The position numbers and the translations under genes were made by a program. A DNA stretch of 64,000 nt from Aromatoleum diolicum (GTDB lineage Bacteria; Pseudomonadota; Gammaproteobacteria; Burkholderiales; Rhodocyclaceae): the NCBI RefSeq assembly GCF_012910955.1, contig NZ_WTVQ01000001.1, forward strand, positions 124,001 to 188,000. Reading direction: 5' to 3'. Shown one piece after another: positions 15,344 to 26,040 of the stretch. Below the pieces are notes generated by a model. That model was not told the origin of the DNA, made no database searches, and worked only from the letters and a program-made list of their open reading frames with translations. Every line of letters begins with the position of its first letter. Within the stretch, counting starts at the first letter, position 1.

Positions 15344-16678
15344 TCAGGGCTCGGCGTCACCGAGGTCGAGCTTCTTCATCTTCTCCCACAGGTTCTTGCG
15401 GCTGATGCCGAGCCGCTCGGCGGTCTGGCCGATCTGGCCGCCACAGGATTCGAGGGCGCCGCGGATGTAGCGGCGCTCGCATTCGCGCAGGTAGTCGCCG
15501 AGCGAGGCCTGCGCATCGCCTGCGGGCGGCGCGAAATCGGCATCGGGAAACAGCGCGGAAGGTGGCAGCCATTCGGCGGCACTCATGATGCACGCGCGCT
15601 CGACCGCATGCTTGAGTTCGCGCACGTTGCCCGGCCACGGGTAATTCATTGCCGCCTCCTCCGCAGCGGGGAGCAGGTGCCGGCGGGCTTCGCCGCTTTG
15701 CCGCGCGATGTCGGTGAGGAAACGCTTGATGAGCCAGGGGATGTCTTCGCGCCGCTCGCGCAAGGGCGGCACGCGGATCTGCACGACGTTGACGCGGTAG
15801 AACAGGTCTTCGCGGAACGCGCCTTCCGCCACCAGCGTCTTGAGGTCGCGGTGGGTCGCGCAAACCAGCAGCAGCTCGACCGGAATCGCGGTTTCGCCAC
15901 CGACACGCGTGACCCGCCGCTCCTGGATCACGCGCAACAGCTTGACCTGCATGCCGGGCGTCATCTCGCCGATCTCGTCGAGGAACAGCGTGCCGCCATC
16001 GGCTTGTTCGAACACGCCGGGGCGCGTGCGCGCCGCGCCGGTGAAGGCGCCCTTCTCGTGACCGAAGAGCTCGGCTTCGAGCAGGGTTTCGGCAATCGCG
16101 CCGCAGTTCACGGCGACGAAGGGGCGCGTCGCGGCCCCCGCCAGGATGGCGTGCAGGCGTTGGGCGACGCGCTCCTTGCCGACGCCCGACTCGCCGACGA
16201 TCAGCACGGTGTTCGCGGCGCGGGCGAGGCGCGGCAGCATCGCCTCGATGCGCTGCATTGCCGCCGACACGCCGAGCGGCTCGCTGCCGGGTGCGCCCCC
16301 CGTCGCCGCCGTCGCAGTGATCTCGATCACCTTGGCGACGAGGGCGTCGAGGTCGAAGGGCTTGGTGACGTAGTCGTGCGCGCCGCGCTTGATCAGTGCG
16401 ACGGCCTGGTCGACGGTGCCGTAGCCGGTGATGAACACGAAGGGCGGGGCCTGCGGCAGGGCGCCGGCCGCCCAGTCGAAGACCGCCTCGCCCGTAGTGT
16501 CGCCGAGGCGCATGTCGCTGATGACGACGTCGAAGGCCTGCTCGCGCAGGCGGCGCATCGCTTCCGCGCCACTGCGGCACCAGCAGGCATCGAAGCCTTC
16601 GAGGCGGAAACGCTCCGCGAGCGATTCGCCCATGATGGGGTCGTCCTCGATCAGGCACACGCGTACGGCGGCATTCAT
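15344..16678 (-). CDS. arxR: Sigma-54-dependent response regulator, ArxR-like
   Basis: A 444-residue NtrC-family activator. The receiver domain (residues 1-120) has acidic pocket EDD (11-13), phospho-acceptor Asp55 and Lys106. The AAA+ domain follows with Walker A GESGVGKE (162-169), the sigma-54 contact loop GAFTGA (210-215) and Walker B GGTLFLDEIGE. A Fis-type helix-turn-helix sits at the C-terminus (IGQTAERLGISRKNLWEKMKKLDLG). The start overlaps the arxS stop by 4 bases. Together with arxS and arxX it forms the sensory unit divergent from the arsenite oxidase genes. An intact GAFTGA means it should act through the -24/-12 promoters found in the divergent region. Confidence 0.9.
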   Translation of the reverse strand: MNAAVRVCLIEDDPIMGESLAERFRLEGFDACWCRSGAEAMRRLREQAFDVVISDMRLGDTTGEAVFDWAAGALPQAPPFVFITGYGTVDQAVALIKRGAHDYVTKPFDLDALVAKVIEITATAATGGAPGSEPLGVSAAMQRIEAMLPRLARAANTVLIVGESGVGKERVAQRLHAILAGAATRPFVAVNCGAIAETLLEAELFGHEKGAFTGAARTRPGVFEQADGGTLFLDEIGEMTPGMQVKLLRVIQERRVTRVGGETAIPVELLLVCATHRDLKTLVAEGAFREDLFYRVNVVQIRVPPLRERREDIPWLIKRFLTDIARQSGEARRHLLPAAEEAAMNYPWPGNVRELKHAVERACIMSAAEWLPPSALFPDADFAPPAGDAQASLGDYLRECERRYIRGALESCGGQIGQTAERLGISRKNLWEKMKKLDLGDAEP

Positions 16679-18132
16679 GGCGGAGACTCCAGTTCGAGGG
16701 CGACGCGCAGCGGCAATTCGACCGCGAACACCGTGAGCCCCGGTTCGCTCTGCACCGAGATGTGCCCGTCGAGCTCGTTGACGATCTGGTAGGTGATCCA
16801 AAGCCCCAGCCCATGTCCGCCGTTGGCATCGCCGACGAAGGGCTCGAACAGGTAGGGCAGGCGCGATGCTTCGATGTGGCGGCCGTCGTTGCGCACCGCC
16901 ATCGTCATGCCTTCGGCGGTGACACCGATGTCGCAGGCGACGGTGCCGCCCGGCTCGACTGCGTGCAGCGCGTTGAGCACCAGGTTGATCAGCACCTGCC
17001 GCACGAGCGTCGCCGGCAGCGGAATCTCGTCGGGCAGATCGCAGTTCCACAGCAGCGCCGCGGATTTCTTCGCGGCTTCCGGCTTGAGCAGGATATGCAC
17101 GTCCTCGATGTCCTGCGGCCCGAGCGGGTGGCTCGGCGCCTTGGCCTCGACCAGCAGTGCCGACACGGTGTCACGGATCTGCAAGAGGCCGCGCTCGAGC
17201 AGCGACATCGTGCGGGCGGCCAGTTCGGGATCATTGCTGCCGTGGCGCCGGTAGGTGCTGATGGCGTTGAGCATGCCGCCGAGCGGGTTGTTGATCTCGT
17301 GCGCGATGCCGCCGGTGAGCCGGCCGATCGCGGCGAGACGCTCGGAGAACATCATCTCGTGCTCCAGCGCCTGCTTCTCGCGCAACTCGTCGAGCATGCG
17401 CGCGACGGCCCGGCCGACCTGACCGAGCTCGTCCTGCGACTGCTCGAGGCGAATCGCGTCGGCATCGGGAATCTTCGTGCCGACCTGGCCGATACAGTCC
17501 GCCAGATGCACCAGCGGATCGGCCATGCGCCGCCCCCAGTACCACGACACCGGCAGGATCAGCAGCAGCACGACCAAGGTCACCAGCGTCGCGCTGAGCC
17601 ACATGCCGGCAAAGCGCGCCTGCATGAAGCTGCTGGTGTGTTCGAGGATCATGTGGCCAAGGCGCACGCCGTCGGCATCGATCGGCGTGATCACGTACAG
17701 GCGGTCGCCGATCTCGAGGCTGCGCGAATCCGACCCGGCCGCGTCGTCGATCAGGCTGGCGATCTCCCGCGCCGCGTCGCCGCGCTCGTGCAGCGGCAGG
17801 AGGATCGGATAGCGCGCGGGATCGGTGGAGACGTAAATGCGCTCACGCGGGTCGACCAGCGTGATGACGCCGGCCTGGTCGCCGCCGCCCGGCGAGGTCG
17901 CCGCGCGGATGATCTCGAAGGCGCGCCACAGGTCGTCGTGCAGCATTGGCGACACCAGGGTCTGGCTCAGCACCGCGGACCAGCGCGCCGAGCTGTCGAG
18001 CATGTCGCGGCGCAGGTCGCGGTATTCGCGCAGCAACAGCGACGCGGTGAGCACGCTCGCGGTGAGGAACACCAGCACCGTCGCGCGCAGCGGAATCTTG
18101 TAGCGGAAGCTGATGTCGCGGAAGTTCAGCAC
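16675..18132 (-). CDS. arxS: Membrane sensor histidine kinase, ArxS-like
   Basis: A 485-residue kinase. TM1 is at about residues 15-35 and TM2 at about 178-200, bounding a periplasmic sensor region of about 140 residues. A HAMP segment and a coiled linker lead into the dimerisation box GGIAHEINNPLGGMLN (His278). The ATPase domain is at the C-terminus, with the N-box region shortened and a GHGLGLWITYQIV G-box. It presumably reads the state of the periplasmic binding protein ArxX and phosphorylates ArxR. It is the second gene of arxX-arxS-arxR, overlapping arxR. Confidence 0.88.
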   Translation of the reverse strand: MLNFRDISFRYKIPLRATVLVFLTASVLTASLLLREYRDLRRDMLDSSARWSAVLSQTLVSPMLHDDLWRAFEIIRAATSPGGGDQAGVITLVDPRERIYVSTDPARYPILLPLHERGDAAREIASLIDDAAGSDSRSLEIGDRLYVITPIDADGVRLGHMILEHTSSFMQARFAGMWLSATLVTLVVLLLILPVSWYWGRRMADPLVHLADCIGQVGTKIPDADAIRLEQSQDELGQVGRAVARMLDELREKQALEHEMMFSERLAAIGRLTGGIAHEINNPLGGMLNAISTYRRHGSNDPELAARTMSLLERGLLQIRDTVSALLVEAKAPSHPLGPQDIEDVHILLKPEAAKKSAALLWNCDLPDEIPLPATLVRQVLINLVLNALHAVEPGGTVACDIGVTAEGMTMAVRNDGRHIEASRLPYLFEPFVGDANGGHGLGLWITYQIVNELDGHISVQSEPGLTVFAVELPLRVALELESPP

Positions 18133-18143
18133 TCGCCCTCCTC

Positions 18144-25126: not shown

Positions 25127-25159
25127 CGCCGGGGCAGGCTGCTTGCGCCCGCCCCGGCG
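25127..25159 (+). other. Intercistronic hairpin between arxC and arxD
   Basis: CGCCGGGGC (25127-25135) pairs perfectly with GCCCCGGCG (25151-25159), with a 15-base loop. It is the strongest of several dyads in the 114-bp gap before arxD, which otherwise contains no gene. There is no T-run, so processing or lowered arxD expression is more likely than full termination. Confidence 0.5.
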
Positions 25160-25176
25160 GCACTTCGGGAAGACAC

Positions 25177-26040
25177 ATGATGGACGCACGAAATCTCGAA
25201 TCCCTCGCCGAACGCGGCGAGTTCTACCTGTGCCTCGCGCGCGCCTTCCTGACGCCCGTCCAGCCTGCAGCCTTTGCCGGCCTGCGGGACGCACTCGCCG
25301 ACGACCTTGCGGAACTCGGCGAATCCCTCGGCTACACCTGTGCCGGCGATGTGGCGTGCTACCGCGAGGCGATCGCCACGATTCCCGACCATGCGTCGTT
25401 GCTGCGCCTCTATAGCAGCCTGTTCGTCGCGCCCCCGCGATCGATCCAGATCAATACCGGCAGCTATCTTGATGGCGCCGTGAACGGCGGCTCGGTGGCG
25501 GCCATGGACGAGGCCTATCGCCGCTGCGGCGTCGCGCGTGACGCCGATTTCCACGACCTGTCGGACCACCTGTCGGTGCAGCTCGAATTCGTCGCGCTGC
25601 TGTACTTCCGCAGCGCCGAGACGATCGCCGGCGGCGCCCCGCTGCCCGCAGTGAGGCCGGAACACTTCCTCCATGATTTCGTGTCGCGCTGGCTGCCGCA
25701 CTTTATCGGCGATCTCGAAAAGGACGCGGAAAACCGCGGCGCCAGTCCGAACCCCTACCTCCCGCTCGCGCGTATCCTGGCCGCCGCGGTCGCGCACGAC
25801 GCCGTCGCCGAGGCGCTCCCGGCCACCACGCAACGCGCACACAAGGCCATCAGCAAGGCGCGCCACGATCGCGCCGAGCGCGGCGTGACCGACGAGGACA
25901 TGGCGTTCATCGCGCGCAAGCTGCGCGAAAAGGGCCTGTCGACCGACCATCTGGCGATCCCGCCCGAACGGCGCGACGAAGCGCAGGGCTACTCGCGCGG
26001 CCAGCCCCCCGGACCACGCAGGGGATCGCGTTACGAATGA
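25177..26040 (+). CDS. arxD: TorD-family molybdoenzyme chaperone ArxD
   Basis: A 287-residue all-helical cytoplasmic chaperone of the TorD/DmsD class, last gene of the operon. Family features are LAERGEFYLCLARAFLTP, LRLYSSLFVAPPRSIQINTGSYLDGAVNGGSVAAMDEAYRRCGV and DHLSVQLEFVALLYFRSAE, followed by the ...EHFLHDFVSRWLPHFIGDLEKDAEN block. It should bind the ArxA Tat signal until Mo cofactor is inserted. The C-terminal extension (RRDEAQGYSRGQPPGPRRGSRYE) is basic and looks disordered. Two ATGs (25177, 25180) are possible. Confidence 0.87.
   Translation: MMDARNLESLAERGEFYLCLARAFLTPVQPAAFAGLRDALADDLAELGESLGYTCAGDVACYREAIATIPDHASLLRLYSSLFVAPPRSIQINTGSYLDGAVNGGSVAAMDEAYRRCGVARDADFHDLSDHLSVQLEFVALLYFRSAETIAGGAPLPAVRPEHFLHDFVSRWLPHFIGDLEKDAENRGASPNPYLPLARILAAAVAHDAVAEALPATTQRAHKAISKARHDRAERGVTDEDMAFIARKLREKGLSTDHLAIPPERRDEAQGYSRGQPPGPRRGSRYE

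Follow-up and report, generated by a model that had tools for sequence, protein, structure and literature searches.

We analyzed a 64,000-nucleotide stretch of the Aromatoleum diolicum genome (NCBI RefSeq assembly GCF_012910955.1, contig NZ_WTVQ01000001.1, positions 124,001 to 188,000; G000:C58:124001-188000 in our numbering), hereafter called the window, and found that its positions 15344-26040 hold an eight-gene cluster that very probably encodes an Arx-type anaerobic arsenite oxidase together with its own arsenite-sensing control. Judged from its sequence, the 829-residue catalytic protein is ArxA, and the system is of an already described type. What appears to be new is a well conserved set of predicted ArxR operators, including an intragenic site, which is a modest regulatory addition. 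With these genes, a bacterium that reduces nitrate should be able to draw electrons from arsenite under anoxic conditions. It adds one more arx carrier to the nitrate-reducing, probably heterotrophic bacteria of the Aromatoleum/Azoarcus type, and is relevant to the cycling of arsenic in oxygen-free soil and ground water. The genes of the cluster are:

15344..16678, minus strand: arxR, NtrC/AtoC-type response regulator and sigma-54 activator, 444 amino acids (aa); Pfam Response_reg, Sigma54_activat and Fis helix-turn-helix (HTH_8)
16675..18132, minus strand: arxS, sensor histidine kinase, 485 aa; Pfam HATPase_c and HisKA, orthologs in the same position
18144..19013, minus strand: arxX, predicted periplasmic arsenite-binding protein, 289 aa; Pfam Phosphonate-bd, best PDB match AioX 6esv
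19360..20598, plus strand: arxB2 (arxB'), polyferredoxin, 412 aa with 25 Cys; Pfam Fer4 repeats
20663..23152, plus strand: arxA, catalytic molybdenum (Mo) subunit, 829 aa, start ATG 20663; Pfam Molybdopterin, Molydop_binding and Fe4S4
23166..23924, plus strand: arxB, four-cluster Fe-S electron-transfer subunit, 252 aa; Pfam Fer4 repeats
23938..25062, plus strand: arxC, NrfD-type membrane anchor, 374 aa; Pfam NrfD
25177..26040, plus strand: arxD, TorD-like chaperone, 287 aa, start at 25177 or 25180; Pfam Nitrate_red_del

All eight frames are intact and carry the expected Pfam domains, in agreement with a first-pass annotation of this DNA that had recognized an arx layout with arxRSX (arxR-arxS-arxX, minus strand) divergent from arxB'ABCD (arxB2-arxA-arxB-arxC-arxD, plus strand). 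The same arrangement was found in dozens of loci, including other arx loci, and is therefore not due to chance. The likely start of arxR is the ATG at 16678, just within the 3' end of arxS (ATGA overlap), the listed frame having begun at a GTG at 17050. The start codon of arxS is a GTG preceded by AGGAGG, and its product has a HisKA score of 24.7 bits, slightly under the cut-off of 26.9. ArxR is 84-86% identical to its Aromatoleum/Azoarcus orthologs at four loci (L001-L004), and ArxB is 96-98% identical to those at the same loci and L133. The 16 Cys of ArxB fall, by eye, into four groups of four, as the earlier description of a four-cluster subunit implied. In addition, ArxB2 was observed to evolve far quicker than its neighbors, showing 55-60% identity where ArxA shows 92-94%. 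It has no evident signal peptide on inspection by eye, and its similarity to NapF is weak (36 bits vs. a cut-off of 102). It may be a cytoplasmic maturation ferredoxin instead of an oxidase subunit.

The residues reported for the catalytic subunit proved exact. ArxA carries a twin-arginine translocation (Tat) motif, SRRRFLQ, and a [4Fe-4S] motif, C-x2-C-x3-C-x27-C, beginning at C60 (both by eye and by pattern); GRGWG occupies residues 163-167 in the context FFGRGWG, and alignment to the ArrA structure 6cz7 places the Mo ligand at Cys 195. The contrast of GRGWG (Arx) with GRY (Arr), as well as the diversity of arx clusters, has already been published, as passages of PMC6549141 indicate. We collected 60 distinct ArxA relatives (56 loci from a scan of genome contigs, plus G008, G154, G235 and G286), 58 of which contain GRGWG; the two exceptions, L049 and L056, are fragments that end short of the motif. 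Both ArrA-type proteins, L084 (above the ArrA cut-off) and L085 (1109 bits, below it), have RGRY, in line with the first-pass statement that GRGWG separates Arx from ArrA.

The phylogeny suggested at the first pass was run without TtrA on 75 rows, two of them ArrA-type, using the IQ-TREE quick search with support from the Shimodaira-Hasegawa-like approximate likelihood ratio test (SH-aLRT) only. The window protein lies within the ArxA group, all 53 ArxA rows being on one side of a branch with an SH-aLRT of 100. The ArrA-type rows adjoin this group (55 rows for ArxA and ArrA together, SH-aLRT 100), and PhsA (L154), Psr/Phs-like rows and AioA fall outside it. AioA and NapA sit on very long branches, and only the ArxA/ArrA/Psr part of the tree is therefore trusted. 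The ArxA rows include L158, L159 and L155, which by our reading of their length and position are group 3 ArxA with a long insertion (strain M52 type); they have GRGWG and 938-961 aa, compared to 829 aa in the window protein, which is without the extra length. The tree companions of the latter are Azoarcus sp. Aa7, Aromatoleum tolulyticum, A. toluolicum, A. evansii and G008, and its closest relatives are those of G008 (94% identity), Azoarcus sp. Aa7 (94%) and A. tolulyticum (93%). G008, whose arx locus is L133, is taken here for Azoarcus sp. CIB. The L133 sequence breaks off within arxX; over the available part, ArxA is 94%, ArxB 96%, ArxC 90% and ArxX 84% identical to the window proteins, and the tandem operators and the intragenic site are also present. 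It differs in ArxB2 and ArxD, with identities of 58% and 74%, respectively.

As for the sensor, the best PDB match of ArxX scored 195 bits (AioX 6esv), compared to 132 bits for ArrX. All seven AioX pocket residues listed in passages of PMC5908839 (Y88, C106, Y131, S161, S163, H192 and D210, AioX numbering) are kept in ArxX by alignment. The ArxX of Alkalilimnicola ehrlichii binds arsenite with a dissociation constant of 311 nM (passages of PMC5908839).

According to passages of PMC6683785, the arx region of Azoarcus sp. CIB comprises eight genes in two divergent operons (AzCIB_1143-1151), in the same order as in the window. Its arxA is induced almost tenfold by arsenite, only without oxygen, and the strain anaerobically turns ~80% of 0.2 mM arsenite into arsenate. 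An arxA mutant loses anaerobic As(III) oxidation, a threefold anaerobic arsenite resistance, and the arsenite-linked growth and ATP gain (PMC6683785). The type members A. ehrlichii MLHE-1 and Ectothiorhodospira PHS-1, compared by description rather than by sequence, have the same gene set and motif (passages of PMC6549141 and PMC6683785); both are haloalkaliphiles, unlike the window host.

A nitrate-respiration search of the host genome (5.15 Mb in 146 contigs, estimated 100% complete) took in NapA, NosZ and NarG. NapA scored 1569 bits (cut-off 904) and a NosZ propeller match 122 bits (cut-off 30). NarG was not found in this genome (best score 38.9 bits vs. a cut-off of 1084) and was rejected as the nitrate partner on that score, NapA being retained; AioB, the Rieske partner, had no match there either. 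The sole PF00016 match (L114:1495-2793, minus strand, G000:C80), easily mistaken for RuBisCO, has OiaX as its best-scoring model (454 bits, short of the OiaX cut-off of 700) and remains far under the thresholds for RuBisCO; RuBisCO-based chemoautotrophy was therefore dropped, other CO2-fixation routes lying outside the search. Since NapA and NosZ are present, NarG and AioB are unmatched, and the RuBisCO-family protein is OiaX-like, the host looks like a heterotroph of the CIB kind, in which arsenite could serve as an additional electron donor for nitrate reduction via Nap. Nitrate as the acceptor fits a genome with NapA and NosZ. In a heterotroph, the cluster might instead serve mainly in detoxification, with a minor energetic role. 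We consider this rather unlikely but worth weighing: it would agree with the missing canonical RuBisCO and with the arsenite resistance lost in the CIB mutant, but CIB, which is itself reported to be RuBisCO-less, shows gains in growth and ATP with arsenite that depend on arxA (passages of PMC6683785).

An ArrA that respires arsenate, or an enzyme that runs in both directions but mainly reduces As(V), is a very improbable reading. ArrA is indeed the nearest NCBIfam equivalog of the window protein (426 bits), its nearest solved structure (6cz7, 366 bits) and its neighboring group in the tree. However, that score is far under the ArrA cut-off of 1600, GRGWG replaces RGRY and aligns with GRY of the ArrA structure, the protein is placed among ArxA and accompanied by a sensor of the arsenite type, and the CIB ortholog oxidizes As(III) in vivo (passages of PMC6683785). 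Even more remote is an oxidoreductase acting on polysulfide, thiosulfate or another sulfur compound, with which the cluster shares the A-B-NrfD layout and for which PhsA is the second-best NCBIfam model (271 bits vs. a cut-off of 694), but the fully supported 55-row group excludes PhsA (L154) and the Psr-like rows, and the ars neighbors and AioX-type sensor point to arsenic.

The regulatory elements predicted for the Arx-type oxidase are:

19191..19206, no strand: predicted ArxR operator UAS (upstream activating sequence) 1, GTTACCGAATCGTAAC; perfect palindrome, GTTAC-N6-GTAAC, in a tandem conserved across arx loci
19234..19249, no strand: predicted ArxR operator UAS 2, GTTACCGAACCGTAAC; perfect palindrome beginning 43 bases past the start of UAS 1
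19314..19328, plus strand: putative weak sigma-54 -24/-12 element, AGGCGC-GGATC-CTGC; 80 bases past the start of UAS 2, a match in position
19944..19959, no strand: predicted third ArxR operator, GTTACCGAACGGTAAC; perfect palindrome inside arxB2, 584 bases into the gene

We surveyed 61 loci for the upstream sites (56 from the contig scan plus the window, L133, L155, L158 and L159), counting as a tandem pair two sites 28-50 bases apart with ≤2 mismatches overall. Such a GTTAC-N6-GTAAC pair occurs in 32 of 42 loci with a detected arxX; it was not found in the arxX-bearing loci L007, L010, L013, L033, L038, L048, L050, L052, L054 and L155. Among the 19 loci without a detected arxX, one (L029) has the pair; nine of the 19 have <700 bases of upstream sequence, which leaves 1 in 10 as the fair comparison. 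Three mononucleotide shuffles of the 1.09 Mb gave no pair at all. In L022, L026 and L045, arxXSR lies downstream, yet the pair remains upstream of arxB2. The pattern used detects a site in 29 of 32 divergent arxX-arxB2 regions (L008, L052 and L054, without one, were dropped), and a strict TGG-N9-TGC follows within 110 bases in 20 of the 29 regions, vs. 0.81 expected from shuffles; the window is not among the 20.

Perfect single sites number five in the host genome (vs. two for a reversed control pattern), three of which belong to the arx locus. Contigs C113 and C135 carry the remaining two, which are single and not tandem, and one of them falls within a coding frame. Their surroundings, inspected by eye and not scanned for families, show no evident arsenic gene, and arx/ars queries there matched solely one ArxR-like regulator (38%) on C113. 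Further ArxR regulon members in this genome were therefore rejected, the extra sites being single with no evident arsenic gene alongside. Across the genus, each of the seven arx carriers has a single perfect pair, as do three of the ten other genomes, with none for the control pattern; in those three arx-less genomes, the pair lies between arxX-like and arxB-like genes of another cluster. A second perfect tandem pair was also observed beyond arxD in genome G286 (L159:15809-15866), ~7.5 kb from the first, and is perhaps another ArxR target.

A pair of palindromes with a -24/-12 box, arranged as here, has been described for all 12 aioBA operons with aioXSR (passages of PMC3834237), a system that shares the sensor family but controls AioBA, which belongs to another enzyme subfamily. 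Moreover, one putative ArxR site and an RpoN promoter are given for A. ehrlichii in passages of PMC5908839. Our survey thus extends reported sites and does not describe a new kind of switch. Passages of PMC6683785 state that ArxRS control of arx had no experimental demonstration, and the predicted operator set supplies exact bases for testing it, in a strain amenable to mutation.

Several points weigh against our reading of the cluster and its control. By the criteria for an NtrC-type regulator and a sigma-54 promoter, the window has paired perfect palindromes, but its own -24/-12 element is weak: it is a poor match, with A for T at the first base and CTGC for TTGC, where L001-L004 carry TGGCCC-N5-TTGC. 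The strict TGG-N9-TGC is absent from the arxX-arxB2 intergenic region of the window. Furthermore, the equation of G008 with Azoarcus sp. CIB is presumptive, resting in part on gene position.

The intragenic site is present in the same codon frame in all eight sequences compared (the window, L001-L005, L046 and L133). Of the 1263 16-base segments of the codon alignment, none is more conserved, and the only tie is with the segment shifted by one base: 13 of its 16 bases are invariant, compared to 16 and 14 invariant positions in the 60 bases before and after it, respectively. At third codon positions, five of six are invariant within the site vs. 42 of 426 across the alignment, and of 342 leucine codons in the eight arx genes, only the one in this site is TTA. 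The protein sequence around the site is variable. Together, this conservation, the invariant third positions, the lone TTA and the variable surrounding protein point to selection on DNA, although the eight sequences are related and hence are not eight independent cases. Perfect sites elsewhere within arxB2 were found in L029, L039, L155 and L159, where start codons are uncertain. A second sigma-54 promoter for arxA was considered and rejected, as no TGG-N9-TGC lies between the intragenic site and arxA in five genomes. For lack of a -24/-12 box there, the site plausibly serves the upstream promoter in an accessory or limiting role. The chances appear evenly balanced that Aromatoleum/Azoarcus ArxR acts at three operators, namely the pair upstream of arxB2 and the site within that gene, the latter being under DNA-level selection and tuning (looping to, limiting or boosting) the arx promoter; by analogy, it would act like NtrC accessory sites. 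No report of an intragenic site was found in the literature covered on ArxR, AioR/RpoN and GTTNC, from which subscription journals were mostly absent; the lone match for GTTNC was a 16S primer. The aioXSR/aioBA passages of PMC3834237 do not mention such a site, unlike what is seen in arxB2.

Going by the protein families, periplasmic arsenite would bind ArxX, which would signal via the kinase ArxS to ArxR. Phosphorylated ArxR would then bind the paired palindromes upstream of arxB2 and drive the sigma-54 promoter, so that arxB2-A-B-C-D would be made with arsenite present and oxygen absent. ArxD would help fold ArxA, which would be exported by Tat and dock with ArxB on ArxC. As(III) would be oxidized to As(V) by ArxA, with electrons passing through the Fe-S clusters and ArxC to the quinone pool, from which nitrate reduction, here probably Nap and not Nar, would accept them. 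The adjacent ars genes would export arsenite. The features on the ars side of the cluster are:

26548..26961, plus strand: hemerythrin-domain protein; TIGR02481
27132..27566, minus strand: unknown protein of 143-144 aa with two internal repeats, adjoining the ars genes
27802..31968, minus strand: ars operon arsR-arsC-arsD-arsA-acr3, convergent with arx; NCBIfam, LMWPc and ArsR-type HTH
31597-31968, minus strand: arsR; ArsR-type HTH
31118-31600, minus strand: arsC; LMWPc
30725-31084, minus strand: arsD; NCBIfam ArsD, 133 bits, above cut-off
28902-30710 (start by eye), minus strand: arsA; NCBIfam ArsA, 886 bits, above cut-off
27802-28884 (start by eye), minus strand: acr3; NCBIfam ACR3, 387 bits, above cut-off

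An ars operon had been predicted to follow the cluster immediately. The operon is present, but it does not follow immediately, since the hemerythrin and unknown genes intervene, and it is convergent with arx. In CIB, by contrast, putative integrase/transposase genes lie between ars and arx (passages of PMC6683785). No hemerythrin gene was detected at the other arx loci examined (>30% identity and half length required). The repeats of the 27132-27566 protein are 54% identical, no family scored above cut-off, and a weak single-sequence model is all helical (mean predicted local distance difference test 69, predicted template modeling score 0.41). Its close relatives among the loci examined are confined to L004, L046 and the Azoarcus sp. 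KH32C plasmid pAZKH, each beside ars genes; in the plasmid collection, pAZKH alone has one. Adjoining arsR, positions 32061-34777 (minus strand) hold Mrp-type Na+/H+ antiporter genes (MnhG, MnhE and MnhD-like), and MnhD-like relatives (75-79%) occur in four of the 16 other genomes of the genus.

ArxA was found in seven of 17 genomes of the genus, the host included (87-100% identity), and the other ten are without it. The AMP-ligase gene adjoining arxR (13427-15118) is present in all 17 genomes, and among the arx carriers it stands beside arx only in the window and G012; the two are ~450 kb apart in G008 and on separate contigs in G005, G011, G014 and G015. These varying positions rule out a single genus-wide location for arx. 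Since the arx block sits at differing places, its distribution is consistent with transfer or relocation. Plasmid-borne arxA relatives occur in Sulfuricella denitrificans (the whole cluster) and Cereibacter azotoformans.

Finally, a related, uncharacterized cluster was observed on pAZKH (L153:3230-15546) and in L130, L134 and L120-L122. An AioX/ArxX-type sensor with the pocket Cys, a kinase and an NtrC-type regulator are encoded there divergently from an Fe-S protein; on the same side as the latter, the pAZKH annotation adds NrfD, a PhsA-like Mo subunit, TorD and a 4Fe-4S polyferredoxin. The Mo subunit is ~27% identical to ArxA and scores below the cut-off of every NCBIfam model listed. The cluster has similar tandem operators and, on pAZKH, adjoins arsA and acr3; it may encode another arsenic or antimony oxidoreductase.

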